This document shows positions 4,711 through 13,708 of a stretch of 64,000 bases of DNA, one piece after another (position 1 is the first letter of the stretch; each line of letters begins with the position of its first letter). The translations under genes and the position numbers were made by a program. The notes under the pieces are model-generated. The model did not search any database, was not told the origin of the DNA, and worked only from the letters and a program-made list of their open reading frames with translations. Location: contig NZ_CM001368.1 of NCBI RefSeq assembly GCF_000177215.2, positions 3,603,625 to 3,667,624 of the forward strand, written 5' to 3'. Source of the stretch: Solidesulfovibrio carbinoliphilus subsp. oakridgensis (lineage in GTDB: Bacteria > Desulfobacterota > Desulfovibrionia > Desulfovibrionales > Desulfovibrionaceae).

Positions 4711-8034
<3,324 letters not shown>

Positions 8035-8043
8035 GGCGGGGGT

Positions 8044-9189
8044 TCAGGACGGGTTGCCGCGGGGAAGCCTGACCCGGAAGATGGTGCCGGTTTCGGGGCC
8101 GGACTCGAGCGCCACCGAGCCGCCGAGGTAGCGCTCGGTCAGGAGCTTGATGCTGTAGGTGCCAAGGCCCCGGCCGAGGCCCTTGGTGGAAAAGGACCGG
8201 TTGAAAATCCGCATGCGCACGCTGCGCGGGATGACGGCGCTGTTTTGCACCCAGAATTCCACCGCCTCCGGGCCGGCGGCGCAGCCCATGCGCACGAGGC
8301 CGCCCGGTTCCGTGGCCTCCAGGGCGTTTTTGACCATGTTGCCGAGCACCCGGCGCAGGAGCACCGGGTCGGAGTCGAAGACCACCGTGTCGCAGCCGTC
8401 GTGGACCTCGATCCGCTTGCCCCGGGCCTGCTCGCCGTTCTGGAAGGTGGCTTCCACCACCTCCAGGATGTCGCCGGAGCGAAGCGGCGCGAAGTTGGTC
8501 TCGAGTTCGTTGGTCTCGGCGGCCAAGAGCTGCTTCTGGTAGGTGATCTCGTCGGTGAGTTGGACCATGGCCCGGTGGATGAGCTGGGCGTCGGGGCGCA
8601 GGTCGTCCTCAACCTCCTCGGCCATGAACTCCATGAGCCCTTGCAGGCCCCCAACGGTATTGAGCATGTCGTGGAAAAAGATCCGCTCCAGGGTCCGACG
8701 CCGCTTTTCGTGGCTGACGTCGGTGATGGAAAAGATGACGAACTGCTCGGCGTCCAGGGCAAAGGGCGAGGAGGAGACCCGCAGGTCCAGCGCCTCGACC
8801 TTGCCGCCTTCCTCGCGGTTGATGTTGCACTCCTGGACGTTTTCCCGGCCGGCAAGGCCCAGCAGGATGGAACGCACGGCCCCGCAGTGGGCGCAGAATT
8901 CCCCGGTGCCGCAGCCGCCCGGGGTCTTTGCCGCGTGCACGCAGCGAAAGGCCTCGCCCGGCCGCTTGCCAAGGGCCTCGCGGATGTCCGGCACGCCGAT
9001 CGCGTCCACGAACTTGCGGTTGCCGAACACGACCTGGCGGCAACGGTTGAGCACCATGGAGATGACCGGGATGGCGTTCAGGATCGCCGGTATTTCATGG
9101 CCGGTCAGAATGGTGAACTGGCGGTCGATCTCGTCGAAGGGGGCCCGTTCGGCCGGGGCGAAACAAGTCTGGTCCAAGGCGGCGGACAT
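8044..9189 (-). CDS. PAS-type sensor histidine kinase with cysteine cluster
   Basis: A 381-residue soluble kinase. The start at 9189 is set by AGGAG six bases upstream. Residues 30-160 form a PAS-like sensor containing C83, C93, C99 and C102 (pattern C-x9-C-x5-C-x2-C), which could hold metal, an iron-sulfur cluster or a redox disulfide. The phosphoacceptor box is FFHDMLN (H173). The HATPase domain has the N box NMVKNALEA (284-292) and a glycine-rich loop GLGRGLGTYSIKLL. No membrane segment is seen, so it senses a cytoplasmic signal. No response regulator is adjacent; the nearest lie at 18.4-19.5 kb. It converges with the treS gene, with nine bases between the stops. Confidence 0.88.
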   Translation of the reverse strand: MSAALDQTCFAPAERAPFDEIDRQFTILTGHEIPAILNAIPVISMVLNRCRQVVFGNRKFVDAIGVPDIREALGKRPGEAFRCVHAAKTPGGCGTGEFCAHCGAVRSILLGLAGRENVQECNINREEGGKVEALDLRVSSSPFALDAEQFVIFSITDVSHEKRRRTLERIFFHDMLNTVGGLQGLMEFMAEEVEDDLRPDAQLIHRAMVQLTDEITYQKQLLAAETNELETNFAPLRSGDILEVVEATFQNGEQARGKRIEVHDGCDTVVFDSDPVLLRRVLGNMVKNALEATEPGGLVRMGCAAGPEAVEFWVQNSAVIPRSVRMRIFNRSFSTKGLGRGLGTYSIKLLTERYLGGSVALESGPETGTIFRVRLPRGNPS

Positions 9190-9345
9190 GGCGGCTCCTG
9201 GCTTGTATCTCTGATGATGGGCCATTGTTAAGGACAGCGCCTGGAAAGTAAAGCCCTTTTAGGAGACCCTCCCCCTTCCCCGCCCCGGGAAGGCCGCGCC
9301 TTTGCCCTTGAATAATCCCGCCGCATCTGGTCTCTTTGGACGGAA

Positions 9346-10833
9346 ATGATCACACGGCTCACGCTTCTCGATTTCATGGCCCACGCCCGGACGGTCTTCG
9401 ACCTGGCCCCGGGCCTAAACGTCCTCACCGGCCCGAACAACACCGGCAAGTCGGCCGTGGTCGAAGCCCTGCGCTGCCTGGCCAGAAATCCGCCGCCCAA
9501 ACACGTCATCCGCCACGGCGCCACCGAGGCCCGGGTGACGGCCGAGACCGACGACGGCACCACCGTCACCTGGGTCCGCCGGCCGAAATACGCCCTTTAC
9601 GAGCTGACGCGGCCGGGCGCGGCCGCACCGGAAGTGTTCGCCAAGTTCGGCCGCACCCCGCCCGAGGCGGTCCTGGCCGTGCTTGGCCTCGGACCCGTGC
9701 CCATCGAGGGCGGCGACGAGGTGGACGTCCACATCGGCAACCAGCGCGAGCCGGTCTTTCTGCTCAACCAGCCCGGTTCGGTCCTGGCCGGCTTTTTCGC
9801 GGCCTCGACCGAGGCGGCCCATCTGATTGGCATGCAAAATCGGCTGACCGACCGGACGAAAAAGGCCAAGGCCGAGAAAAAACGGCTGGAAGGACGCATG
9901 GCTGGCCTCCTGGCCGAGCTCGACAAACTTGCGCCGCTGCCGGACCTGGAACTGCGGCTCGGCGCGGCCACGGACCTGGAGGCGGCCCTGGCCGCCGGGG
10001 ACCGGCAGGCGGCCGGCCTTGCCGCCGTGCTGGCGGCCGGGCACGGACTTCGCGGCCGCGTGGCCGGCCTTGGCCGCAGCCGGGACGCCCTGGCGGCGCT
10101 CGCCTTGCCGCCGGAATTGGCCCCGACCGCCGCCCTGGCTGGGGCCGTGTCCAGGCAAGCCGCCCTGGCCGTCCGGCTCGATCGGACCGTGGGCCGCCGG
10201 CAAGCCCTGGCGTCGCTCACCGACCCGCCGGCCCTGGCCGACACGGCCCGCCTTTCTTCCCAGTCGGACGGCCTCGCCCGCCTGCGCACAGACGAAGCCC
10301 GCGCGGCCGGCCGGGCCAGGGCCCTGGGTCCGCTCGCGCCGCCGCCGGCCCTGGCCGACCTGGCCGGGCCGGCCGATCTGGCCCGCCGCCTGGACGAGGC
10401 CCGGCGGGCGGCCAAACGGCTGGCCGGCCGCGACCGGACCCTGGACAAACTGGCTGCCCCGCCCGAAACGGCCCCGGTGGCACCGCTTGCCGCCCTGGCC
10501 GGACGCCTGGAAGCGGGCCGGGCCGCGGGACACGCCCTGGCCCGCCGGAACCGGACCCTGGCCGGGCTGGCCCCGCCGCCGGTTCCGGCCGACGTCCAGC
10601 CTCTGGCCGCGACCCTGGCCGCCCTGGCCGAGGCCCGGCAGGCCGTTGCCGCCGCCGAGGCGGCCGCCGCCGGAAGCGCCGCGTCCCTGGCCGCCCTGGC
10701 CGGGCGCATCGAGGCCCGATTGGCCGAACTCCCCGCCTGTCCCCTGTGCGGCGGGGAACTCTCCGCCGCCGATTTCCTCGGGCCCGGCCACCGCCACGCC
10801 ACCCCCGGGCCCGGGGCCGGAAAGACGCCATGA
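9346..10833 (+). CDS. N-terminal half of a split Rad50/SMC-type ATPase with CxxC hook
   Basis: A 495-residue protein resembling only the first half of Rad50/SbcC. It has Walker A GPNNTGKS (29-36), a Q-loop-like FLLNQPG (138-144), then a long Ala/Leu-rich helical arm ending in CPLCGG (465-470), which looks like a zinc hook. Signature motif, Walker B and returning arm are missing; they occur instead in the gene at 12241. The arm holds five Pro-Pro breaks at exactly 39-residue spacing (255, 294, 333, 372, 411). The stop overlaps the nuclease start as ATGA. I infer it pairs with the other ATPase half and the nuclease for DNA-end processing. Confidence 0.8.
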   Translation: MITRLTLLDFMAHARTVFDLAPGLNVLTGPNNTGKSAVVEALRCLARNPPPKHVIRHGATEARVTAETDDGTTVTWVRRPKYALYELTRPGAAAPEVFAKFGRTPPEAVLAVLGLGPVPIEGGDEVDVHIGNQREPVFLLNQPGSVLAGFFAASTEAAHLIGMQNRLTDRTKKAKAEKKRLEGRMAGLLAELDKLAPLPDLELRLGAATDLEAALAAGDRQAAGLAAVLAAGHGLRGRVAGLGRSRDALAALALPPELAPTAALAGAVSRQAALAVRLDRTVGRRQALASLTDPPALADTARLSSQSDGLARLRTDEARAAGRARALGPLAPPPALADLAGPADLARRLDEARRAAKRLAGRDRTLDKLAAPPETAPVAPLAALAGRLEAGRAAGHALARRNRTLAGLAPPPVPADVQPLAATLAALAEARQAVAAAEAAAAGSAASLAALAGRIEARLAELPACPLCGGELSAADFLGPGHRHATPGPGAGKTP

Positions 10834-11777
10834 CCCTGCCCACGAAAAAAGCCCGCGGGCTCCTTTGCATCCCCGATCCCCACGTGGCCGGGGCCCCGCC
10901 CATGCAGCGGCTCGAATCCTTCATGGACGACGTCCTCTCCAAGCTCGCCGCCTGCCTGGACGAGGCCGCCCGCGAGGACCTGGTGCCGGTCGTGCTCGGG
11001 GATCTCTTCCACTGGCCGCGCGAAAACCCCAACACGTTGATGGTGGCCCTGATCGAGCTCTTCCGGCCCCATCATCCGTTCGTCCTGGTCGGCAACCACG
11101 ACAAATACCAGGCCCGGTTCACGGCCGACACCTCCCTGGCCGTCTTGCGGGCGGCCGGCGTGGTCGAGGTTCTGGAGGCGCCGGGCCTTTTCCTGCGCCT
11201 GGAGACGCCCACCGGCACGGCCGTCATTGGCGCGTCCCCGGACGGGGCGCCCCTGCCGGCCTCGGTCGAAAAGGCGGCGGACGAGGAGAGCGTCTGGCTG
11301 ACCCACCACGGCATCGGCTTTCCCGACTACCTGGAGCAGCGGATCAAGATCCGGGAAATCCCGGGCCTCGACTGGGTCATAAACGGCCACATGCACCGGC
11401 CCCAACCGACCGTCACGGCCGGCGCCACGCGCTGGGCCAACCCCGGCAACATCACGCGCCTCCACTTCAGCCGGCGGTCCAAGGAGCGCGTCCCCATGGC
11501 GGCCATCTGGCGGCCCGGGGCCGACGATCTGGAACGGTGGCCCATCCCGCACCGGCCCTTCGAGGAAGTCTTCCCGGACCAGGAGTTCCCGCCCGAGGAG
11601 ACGGCCGCGCCCGAGGTCGAATCCCGGTTTCTCGAAGGCCTGGCCCGCCTCGCCTGGCGACGCACCCGCGAGGGGGCCGGGCTGCGGGAATTTTTAAGCG
11701 CCAACTTGAACCCCGAAAACCCGGAAACGAAAATCATCTGGGAGCTTTACCGCGAGGTCACCCATGCCGACGAATGA
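10830..11777 (+). CDS. Mre11/SbcD-like metallophosphoesterase
   Basis: A 315-residue calcineurin-like phosphoesterase. Ordered metal motifs are visible: PDPH (D16, H18), GDLFHW, GNHDKYQ, THHG and GHMHRP, the set expected of Mre11/SbcD nucleases. The C-terminal 70 residues may form the capping or ATPase-binding part. Its start lies in an ATGA overlap with the upstream ATPase half, which argues for fixed stoichiometry. Next to a Rad50-like protein, a DNA exo/endonuclease is the most likely function; a phosphodiesterase on another substrate is possible. It is shorter than typical SbcD (about 400 residues). Confidence 0.85.
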   Translation: MTLPTKKARGLLCIPDPHVAGAPPMQRLESFMDDVLSKLAACLDEAAREDLVPVVLGDLFHWPRENPNTLMVALIELFRPHHPFVLVGNHDKYQARFTADTSLAVLRAAGVVEVLEAPGLFLRLETPTGTAVIGASPDGAPLPASVEKAADEESVWLTHHGIGFPDYLEQRIKIREIPGLDWVINGHMHRPQPTVTAGATRWANPGNITRLHFSRRSKERVPMAAIWRPGADDLERWPIPHRPFEEVFPDQEFPPEETAAPEVESRFLEGLARLAWRRTREGAGLREFLSANLNPENPETKIIWELYREVTHADE

Positions 11778-12078
11778 ACCGGCCGCCCCCGACGCCGACG
11801 CCCGCCTGGAACGCGAACTGGCCGGGCTCAAGGCCCAATACGAACGCCTGCGCGACGACAAGGTCCGCACCGAGCAGGACCTCTCCCACCTTCAAAACCA
11901 GCTGGCCGAACTCGAAGCCAAGGCGCAGGCCGAATACGGCACAGCCGACCCCGAGGCCCTGCGCCGGCTCCTGGAACAGAAGCGCGCCGACAACGCCCGC
12001 CTCGTGGCCGAGTACCGCGACCACATCGCCACCGTGCGCCGGGAATTGGAGTCGGTGGAGAAGGCGTTTGAAGGGTAG
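11764..12078 (+). CDS. Small coiled-coil protein of the split Rad50 cluster
   Basis: A 104-residue charged helical protein overlapping the nuclease gene by 14 bases. Residues 12-100 have heptad-like spacing of Leu/Ala/Val with many Glu, Lys, Arg and Gln, interrupted once near YGTADPEAL (about 59-67), so it probably folds as a helical hairpin. No enzymatic motif and no recognised family. Because the second ATPase half has only a short helix in front of its ATPase motifs, this protein could supply a returning coiled-coil strand; that is inference. Confidence 0.7.
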   Translation: MPTNEPAAPDADARLERELAGLKAQYERLRDDKVRTEQDLSHLQNQLAELEAKAQAEYGTADPEALRRLLEQKRADNARLVAEYRDHIATVRRELESVEKAFEG

Positions 12079-12102
12079 AAAGAGGAAAGAAAGGGGGATG
12101 AA

Positions 12103-12150
12103 GAATGCCTCCGGCGGCCGGGAGGGGATGATCCCCTCCCGGACCCTCCC
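12103..12150 (+). repeat. Repeat family A, copy 1
   Basis: Contains GCCTCCGGCGGCC (12107-12119) running into a perfect 11-bp stem with a TGA loop (12118-12142). It lies between the coiled-coil gene and the second ATPase half. It is an inverted partner of the copy at 12998-13048, so the two bracket the gene between them. No T-tract follows, so it is not a classic intrinsic terminator. Confidence 0.85.
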
Positions 12151-12240
12151 CAACGGGGGAAAAGTATGTGAGCACAGGCCGCTGAGGACCGGGTGACGGA
12201 AGTGTGCCCTGTTGTGCGAGAAGGGGGGCAGGAGAGCCTG

Positions 12241-12972
12241 ATGGAGAGTGAAACGGCTTTGGATTGGACGGCGTTGGCCGAGGAGCGACGGGAGCTGGAA
12301 CGGCGGGTGTACCGGCTGTCCGGCGCGGCCGAGGGGCGGGTGCGGGACTACGGCGCGGCCCGGGCGGCTCTTGGGGAGGTCGAGGCGTTTTTGGCCCTGT
12401 CGCCGGGCGTGGCGGCCCGGCTGGAGGAGCTGACGGCGGAACTCTTCGGCGAGGTGCTCGACGAAATCGAGGCCGACCTCAGCCACGCCGTGCGCGAAAT
12501 CCTCGGCCAGGACCGCACGGTCGTGTCCCGGCGCGAGGTCAAGGGCAACCGGCTTTGCATCGAATTCGACATGGAGCAGGGGGGCAATGTCGAGGACATC
12601 TGGTCGGGCCAGGGCGGGTCGGTCTGCAACATCCTGTCGGTCGGGCTGCGGCTCATTGCCCTGTCCCAGCTCGATCCGGCCGCGCACCGGCCGTTTCTGG
12701 TCCTCGACGAGCAGGACTGCTGGATCAAACCCGACCTGGTGCCCGGGTTCGTGCGCCTCATTTCCGCCATCGCCGACCGGCTCGGCATCCAGGTCCTCTA
12801 CATCAGCCACCACCCGGTGGATCTGTTTGCGGACCAGGCCCGCCGCGTCTTCGCCCTGCGCCCGGGCCGCGAAGACGGCCCCCGCCTGGAAATCCTGACC
12901 GACCGGGCCTTGAACGCGGCCACGCTTCCCGCCCTCGACGCCTCGGCAACCACCGCCCCCACCGACGACTGA
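12241..12972 (+). CDS. C-terminal half of a split Rad50/SMC-type ATPase
   Basis: A 243-residue protein; the ATG at 12241 is preferred because AGGAG sits about seven bases upstream (an in-frame start at 12193 is weaker). It has a short N-terminal helix (7-50), then motifs of the second half of an ABC/SMC ATPase: a signature-like SGQGGSVCN (122-130), Walker B FLVLDE (152-157), a D-loop region QDCWIKPD and the switch histidine in YISHH (187-191). There is no Walker A, so it cannot work alone and must complement the 9346 gene product. Repeat family A copies flank it in inverted orientation. Confidence 0.8.
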   Translation: MESETALDWTALAEERRELERRVYRLSGAAEGRVRDYGAARAALGEVEAFLALSPGVAARLEELTAELFGEVLDEIEADLSHAVREILGQDRTVVSRREVKGNRLCIEFDMEQGGNVEDIWSGQGGSVCNILSVGLRLIALSQLDPAAHRPFLVLDEQDCWIKPDLVPGFVRLISAIADRLGIQVLYISHHPVDLFADQARRVFALRPGREDGPRLEILTDRALNAATLPALDASATTAPTDD

Positions 12973-12997: not shown

Positions 12998-13048
12998 TTT
13001 CAGGGGGTCCGGGGGGGGATGATCCCCCCGGCCGCCGGAGGCATCTTC
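12998..13048 (-). repeat. Repeat family A, copy 2
   Basis: The reverse-orientation copy, with the 13-mer at 13030-13042 and a G-rich/C-rich stem around a central ATGATC. It sits behind the second ATPase half and just beyond the stop of the cysteine-rich peptide gene on the other strand, so it could shape the 3' ends of both transcripts. Confidence 0.85.
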
Positions 13049-13246: not shown

Positions 13247-13708
13247 TTAGAGGTTTTGGACCAGGAAGTGGAGGATCATGCGCCGGCTGATTTCGCCGAC
13301 GAGGACGCCGTTGGGGTCGATGACCGGCAGGGCGGTGATGCCCTTGGTGACGATCAGTTCGCTGGCCATGACGAAGAGGTCTTCGGGGTGGGCGAAGGGG
13401 TAGTCCGCGTCCATGAGGCTGCCGACGCTGGTGTCGGAGATGGCGGCCATGTTGTGGCGCAGGGCGTCGAGGAGTTCCTCGCGGCCGTCGAGCCGGCCGG
13501 CCTTGGCCTGTTCGATGACCGGCGGCGGCACGATGACGGACAGGAGCATGTGGATGGTGACCACGCCGAGCAGCCGGTCGCAGTGGTCCACCACGTAGGT
13601 GTTGCGAAAGATGTGGGCCATGCCGCCGTACCAGATGAGCACATGGCCGACCGGAGCCTCGGCGCGTACCTTGATGACGTTTGTTCGCATGATATCGGCT
13701 ATTTGCAT
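13247..13708 (-). CDS. CBS-domain protein
   Basis: A 153-residue protein made of a CBS pair. It begins IADIMRTNVIKVRAEA, the usual first strand-helix of a CBS unit, and the second unit contains ELIVTKGITALPVIDPNGVLVGEIS. Such stand-alone modules bind adenine nucleotides and regulate a partner. Ribosome-site sequence in front of the chosen ATG is weak; an in-frame start about 15 codons upstream is possible. The cysteine-rich peptide gene follows immediately on the same strand. Confidence 0.82.
   Translation of the reverse strand: MQIADIMRTNVIKVRAEAPVGHVLIWYGGMAHIFRNTYVVDHCDRLLGVVTIHMLLSVIVPPPVIEQAKAGRLDGREELLDALRHNMAAISDTSVGSLMDADYPFAHPEDLFVMASELIVTKGITALPVIDPNGVLVGEISRRMILHFLVQNL

Follow-up and report, generated by a model that had tools for sequence, protein, structure and literature searches.

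A Probable Split and Permutable Mre11-Rad50-Like System in Solidesulfovibrio carbinoliphilus, Distant Bacteria, Megaplasmids and Viruses

Results

We analyzed a 64,000-nucleotide stretch of Solidesulfovibrio carbinoliphilus subsp. oakridgensis (contig NZ_CM001368.1, positions 3,603,625 to 3,667,624 of the forward strand; hereafter the window), from a host genome of 4.22 Mb, in which four co-directional + strand genes, here named A, B, C, and D, lie within positions 9346-12972 and resemble a Mre11-Rad50 system whose ATPase is divided between two polypeptides. Among the open reading frames (ORFs) of the window, gene A (9346..10833) encodes 495 aa with a Rad50/SMC-type ATPase N-lobe (about residues 1-143), a helical arm and a C-terminal CxxC; gene B (10830..11777) a 315-aa Mre11-type metallophosphoesterase; gene C (11764..12078) a small helical protein of 104 aa with a conserved YGTxD-like middle, which we read as a hairpin; and gene D (12241..12972) a 243-aa Rad50/SMC-type ATPase C-lobe bearing one N-terminal helix of ~80 residues. 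A and B meet in an ATGA overlap, with B starting at 10830, the end of B and the start of C have 14 nt in common, and a gap of 162 nt separates C from D, for which we used the ATG at 12241 in place of an alternative GTG at 12193, the ATG being nearer to the starts called in homologs. An initial annotation of this DNA had taken the overlap and the common direction as signs of a functional unit, and the layout of the four genes agrees with it. The nearest named relatives of D belong to Solidesulfovibrio (74% identity).

Protein A carries the Walker A motif (GPNNTGKS, residues 29-36; 9430..9453 on the + strand, as are all motifs below), in which G29, N31, N32, G34, K35, and S36 are invariant in 45/45 aligned proteins, and a Q-loop residue, Q133. 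Only 27 residues before its C-terminus stands the CxxC (CPLC, residues 465-468; 10738..10749) of a putative zinc hook. Near-full A proteins from 57 loci all retain Walker A, and 55 of them have a CxxC within their last 90 residues; the two that lack it are Planctomycetota proteins (L093 and L095), and the genome of L093 also has an SbcD above the family cut-off. Matches were obtained to AAA_23 in Pfam (E 8.2e-7), to SMC6 and Rad50 N-lobes (~1e-9) and Rad50 hook structures (6zff, 1.4e-6; 1l8d, 3e-5) in the PDB with the A family profile, and to the SbcC N-lobe by hhalign (93.5%). The predicted fold of A likewise matches Rad50/SMC N-lobes, with RecF and SMC heads fitting equally well or better; this comparison covers Foldseek's own matches, so that a family which it did not list is not thereby excluded. 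A first gene with Walker A, Q-loop and CxxC, and with neither signature nor Walker B, is thus what the annotation had described, and the D profile matches none of the 57 A proteins at E<=10.

Between head and hook, five tandem units of 39 residues (residues 241-435; 10066..10650), each resembling ALAxLxxPPxLADTAxLA, make up the arm, modeled as helices of ~28 residues joined by links of ~11 residues that hold the PP pair. The distance from Walker A to CxxC in 55 proteins groups at about 355, 398, 437, and 480 residues; a period of 39.5 fits these values best (R 0.77) and was equaled by none of 2000 random sets, which ignore ancestry. The arm of S. alcoholivorans, for example, is one unit shorter than that of the window protein. 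That unit number changes by one and not by two hints that the units lie in line and do not form hairpins. Arm length does not correlate with the length of B, C, or D (rho 0.19, -0.05, and 0.17). We found no return strand following the CxxC of A, whose chain ends just after it, in contrast to seven canonical SbcC proteins in which the hook is central (residue 523-538 of 1071-1078).

Protein D holds the complementary motifs. Rad50 proteins have the signature LSGGE, or LSGG[EQ]; at the presumed signature position of D, upstream of Walker B, stands instead GxGGSV, invariant in 45/45 proteins (GQGGS in the window, 12607..12621, with G123, G125, G126, and S127 invariant in all 45). Walker B itself (FLVLDE, 12694..12711) is present at 57/57 loci, and the switch-histidine motif (SHH within ISHH, 12805..12813) is invariant at S189, H190, and H191 (45/45). 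None of the 57 D proteins has a Walker A, and the A profile matches none of them at E<=10. The fourth gene was therefore described correctly as to Walker B, switch histidine and missing Walker A, the signature-like motif being of another form than that of Rad50. Pfam gave no match for D at E<=1, and the D family profile matched an SMC head in the PDB (E 5.7e-5) and, weakly, ABC (ATP-binding cassette) transporters. Profile searching against Rad50/SMC, proposed as a check, succeeded for A, N-lobe and hook alike, and reached only the SMC head, not the SbcC C-lobe, for D. Because proof from sequence failed, the identification of D as a C-lobe rests on its predicted fold, which matches Rad50/SMC C-lobes, and on the fusions described below.

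Conservation is strict in B, where D16, H18, GD57-58, GNHD88-91, H159, and G186, H187, and H189 are invariant in 30/30 aligned homologs and a further conserved stretch extends beyond the phosphoesterase core. B matches Metallophos in Pfam (E 2.7e-8) and, as a family profile, the Mre11 structure 3auz (E 1.5e-7), such that its reading as a phosphoesterase with all Mre11 motifs stands; the SbcD profile TIGR00619 matches B below its cut-off (E 0.16). C, annotated as a small coiled-coil, is predicted from sequence to consist of two helical stretches flanking the conserved middle.

The four genes recur together far beyond Solidesulfovibrio. A scan for D in one-genome-per-species contigs returned 97 relatives, of which 80 were kept and joined with 30 loci from genomes of the host's family to give 110 cellular loci, some species appearing twice (through two tools), many stretches being short, with A reduced to a fragment, and many loci being truncated by a contig end or a short flank. 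With iterated profiles, D was detected at all 110 loci, C at 95, B at 93, and A at 84. All four genes are present together at 84 loci, where A is always followed by B, C, and D on the same strand (84/84), with the proviso that in three the open frame of B begins ahead of an A fragment at the locus edge (the frames overlap). Records with this arrangement are named as Desulfobacterota, Planctomycetota, Bacillota, Chlamydiota, Sumerlaeota, and Poribacteria, and many are metagenome-assembled genomes. Across 56 loci, the pairwise distances of the four components correlate at 0.79-0.92, which shows shared inheritance and not contact.

Co-occurrence extends to whole genomes. In 119 genomes of the family, D is present in 47 and B in the same 47, weak matches to D in G061 (E 6.5e-4) and to B in G006 (E 1.2e-5) having been dropped. 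A gave a strong match in 45 of these genomes; the other two (G005 and G080) show only its end, at a contig end. The genes of G082 are fragmented over several frames. D stands apart from A-B-C in some genomes that still have A and B, several kb away on the other strand in G109 and G058, about 2 kb away in G088, and on another contig in G031 and G041. B occurs with no A, C, or D nearby in G051 (C1:2284192-2284965) and G010 (C5:212477-213268); these divergent genes, one with an internal stop and one matched in part, look like relics of a lost operon. Among 36 further genomes reached through loci, B was found in 34, including five of the seven whose locus showed D alone. Homologs occurring independently of one another, which would have spoken against a joint function, were thus not the pattern, D, A, and B being found together across the 47 family genomes and the exceptions amounting to the two relic-like B genes and two drafts with D in which no B was found.

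On megaplasmids the two ATPase genes are joined. Nine records were matched by B, and in 6/6 loci that we read the order is C, then one D-A protein, then B; three Variovorax records were left aside, their identity and coverage being the same as those of the Variovorax record read. The six comprise Bosea (two), Acidiphilium, Variovorax, Methylorubrum extorquens AM1, and Rhizobium leguminosarum. In five of the fusions D spans about residues 20-210 and A about 230-650 (shifted in Acidiphilium), with the CxxC near the end. Profiles built without any plasmid sequence match them at E values of 1e-17 to 8e-10 for C, 5e-29 to 2e-33 for D, 8e-42 to 3e-61 for A, and 2e-52 to 6e-58 for B. The D-A fusion is a circularly permuted Rad50, in that it links what are ordinarily the two termini and opens the chain at the arm instead.

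Viruses carry the system as well. Of 31 viral stretches (28 IMG/VR loci, with near-duplicates such as L165 and L166, two stretches of phage Magritte and one of vB_BboS-125), 28 have a strong A, 16 a strong B, and 8 a strong D. The profiles used here were iterated and already included viral ORFs, which qualifies their E values. Both split and fused forms exist, the latter a D-A fusion (L167) and a B-A fusion with a separate D (L142). Pattern searching for D in IMG/VR gave 11 pattern matches and no relative; viral D genes were found near A instead. Bacillus phage vB_BboS-125 has separate A (gp32, annotated "exonuclease") and D (gp35, annotated "ATPase") genes, and we infer that these are members of two PHROGs families, phrog_16465 ("exonuclease"), which matches A at E 2.9e-19, and phrog_15167 ("ATPase"), which matches D weakly at E 0.015. 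The same phage (NC_048735) has a Mre11-type B frame at 7112-8227 of the stretch examined, over most of which no coding sequence is annotated.

Gene C can be followed into both settings. Plasmid C proteins match the C profile at 98.6% by hhalign, and five viral ORFs upstream of D at 94.0% (E 1.3e-7), relative to controls of 6.6% (viral set reversed), 4.6% (A arm), and 0.3% (D helix). These viral ORFs were chosen by visual inspection of the 1.5 kb preceding D, and another gene separates three of the five from D. Beside D in phages Magritte (gp1) and Tunturi_5 (gp12 and gp13) we saw no C-like protein. As both sets exceed the controls by far, a C-like protein probably recurs in phages. In a tree of B, from which L092 and L095 were left out, 55 cellular rows fall on one side of a branch (97/93), with plasmids next, viruses outside and SbcD far away; the virus and SbcD branches are long, which warns of false joining.

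No SbcC (TIGR00618) or SbcD (TIGR00619) was recognized at E<=0.001 in the genome of the window, a result that answers the question of a full-length sbcCD elsewhere and favors the proposal of a system distinct from canonical SbcCD. The TIGR00618 cut-off is strict, being passed by 0/119 family genomes and 1/14 controls. SbcD exceeded its cut-off in 21/119 family genomes, which divide as 0/47 with D vs 21/72 others (Fisher p 9e-6) or, by genus, as 0/18 vs 9/26 (p 0.006), p values that are optimistic because of shared ancestry. Strong SbcC matches (E below 1e-30) occur in 24/119 family genomes, none among the 47 with D, and some D genomes (e.g., G016, G046, and G072) have weak matches to the SbcD profile, below its cut-off. 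Among 199 Planctomycetota genomes, D was found in 9 (weak matches in G206, G308, and G345, at E about 3e-4 to 5e-4, having been dropped), SbcD above the cut-off in 30, and both in none (p 0.36).

Discussion

We interpret A-B-C-D as one old, split and permutable Mre11-Rad50-like machine that stands in for SbcCD, to which we assign a probability of about 0.7. Because the set is also found in distantly related bacteria and in viruses, and its halves are fused in reversed order on some plasmids, the split appears to represent an old alternative architecture rather than gene breakage. The annotation's idea of an ATPase assembled from two polypeptides within a four-gene unit is accordingly strengthened by fixed gene order, co-occurrence, the fold matches of A and D to N- and C-lobes, and natural D-A fusions.

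From these observations we infer the following picture of the complex, its stoichiometry, ATP cycle and substrate. A, with Walker A and Q-loop, and D, with the signature-like motif, Walker B and switch histidine, would together form an ABC head. A pair of these heads would enclose two ATPs, with Walker A in each A set against GxGGS in the D of the partner head, a geometry by which hydrolysis would need both polypeptides. B would be the nuclease at the base of the machine. A would contribute a single-strand arm, built from ~39-residue helical units that differ in number between proteins and ending in the CxxC hook, and D its single helix of ~80 residues. The hairpin of C, which precedes D in gene order, would probably pack on the D helix and replace the return strand near the head. 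Such a machine might capture DNA ends or hairpins, which B would cut under ATP control, and so perform the work of SbcCD in these lineages.

Several observations weigh against this interpretation. Similarity of D to the SbcC C-lobe is undetectable in sequence, at 0.2% by hhalign. The split of motifs is not perfectly clean, as an hhhhDE string (IFLLDE) occurs in 3/57 A proteins (L072, L073, and L087), which by the A consensus looks like a conserved FLL segment after the Q-loop and not like Walker B. D was found without B in two of the 36 further genomes, both drafts, and SbcD above the cut-off coexists with the system in two of the 36 (G140 and G149). Finally, 51/119 family genomes have neither D nor SbcD.

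Alternatively, a Rad50-like ATPase and a nuclease could constitute an anti-phage or anti-plasmid defense system, as the initial annotation had allowed. The patchy distribution would suit such a role, PADLOC matched A to GajA and LmuB at E about 1e-8, and SMC/Rad50-like ATPases do serve in Wadjet and Lamassu (PMC10586767). The PADLOC matches of A, however, among the matches listed (25 of 61), lie within residues 1-79, the P-loop region; PADLOC gave none for B and best E values of 0.0023 for C and 0.011 for D. Four flanking frames that we scanned yielded metabolic or regulatory domains in three and no match in the fourth, hence no defense gene among those with a match, and the system is itself found on phage and viral contigs. 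We regard a defense role as unlikely on these grounds. To a similarly small degree we would entertain a chromosome- or end-tethering machine with a mainly structural phosphoesterase, since a modular arm ending in CxxC is suggestive of tethering or spacing; against it stands the invariance of the phosphoesterase motifs of B.

Still more doubtful is the notion that A and D are separate ATPase fragments, with D regulating something else or A pairing with another C-lobe protein. The genomes in which D stands apart from A-B-C, and the lack of detectable similarity between D and SbcC, would fit it, but co-occurrence, and D-A fusion on plasmids and on one viral contig, do not. That sbcC was broken by mutation or rearrangement in this genome, leaving two relic halves, has next to no likelihood: although the halves do correspond to two lobes of one Rad50 head with B and C between them, the split, the order and the invariant motifs recur across phyla. 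The same cross-phylum conservation rules out a local pseudogene or frameshift.

Mre11-Rad50 is among the most conserved of DNA repair machines, and its topology, head-coil-hook-coil-head, is generally treated as invariable. The present system shares with SbcCD and Mre11-Rad50 a Mre11-type phosphoesterase, a helical arm, a CxxC and an SMC/Rad50-type head whose lobes and motifs correspond to theirs. It differs in that the head is encoded as two proteins or a permuted D-A fusion, the CxxC terminates the chain on an arm built from ~39-residue units for which we found no return strand, a small protein, C, is added, and GxGGSV apparently takes the place of LSGGE. We do not file it as SbcC because two defining features, a single chain and a hook between two strands, are lacking here: the lobes occupy two genes and, when fused, run D-A and not N-lobe first. 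With somewhat less assurance than for the machine as such, yet still on the favorable side, we propose that it represents a topologically distinct Mre11-Rad50 class, with a head of two polypeptides or a permuted chain, a ruler of 39-residue units free of a return strand, and a hairpin subunit in place of the return coil. On this proposal the machine would have displaced SbcCD from the chromosomes of several phyla, with phages and megaplasmids sharing it.

The literature that we searched held no description of a split or permuted Rad50, and print may hold more. Nuclease and ATPase joined in one chain are known from Mre11/Rad50 fusion proteins such as Mimivirus R555, and one P-loop NTPase segment is noted to be missing from the fusions of Bacillus phage 0305phi8-36 and Anaerostipes; the part of that source available to us describes neither an ATPase in two pieces nor a C-lobe gene of its own nor a permuted chain (PMC3175470). 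The Bacillus phage and Anaerostipes fusions are perhaps of the same kind as the viral B-A fusion above; phage 0305phi8-36 did not turn up in our search. The two PHROGs families bear separate labels, with no statement that they are halves of one ATPase. Lamassu, Wadjet and Gabija resemble the system in their SMC/Rad50-like or OLD-type P-loop head and differ in that the PADLOC matches listed here for A are confined to its P-loop region; none of the three is known to have a Mre11-type partner.

A natural split together with a circular permutant offers a clean test of what the return strand and arm length are for, and as arm length varies in whole units, the latter question is addressable here. 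The system may also explain how an SbcD above the family cut-off can be absent from many Desulfovibrionaceae and some Planctomycetota, and it provides a functional lead for phage genes labeled "exonuclease" or "ATPase."

Flanking Features

Gene D is bracketed by two inverted copies of a palindromic element (window 12105-12146 and 13005-13044). Its core has 96 matches in the genome (40 on the + and 56 on the - strand, at <=3 mismatches), compared with 0 for a backward-read control, and the element is therefore an abundant repeat, in a host genome without recognizable SbcCD. Upstream of A, the frame at 4711-8034 encodes a GH13 alpha-amylase-type enzyme, presumably a trehalose synthase with a kinase part, and that at 8044-9225 a protein with a HATPase_c domain; downstream of D, the frame at 13250-13639 has a CBS domain.

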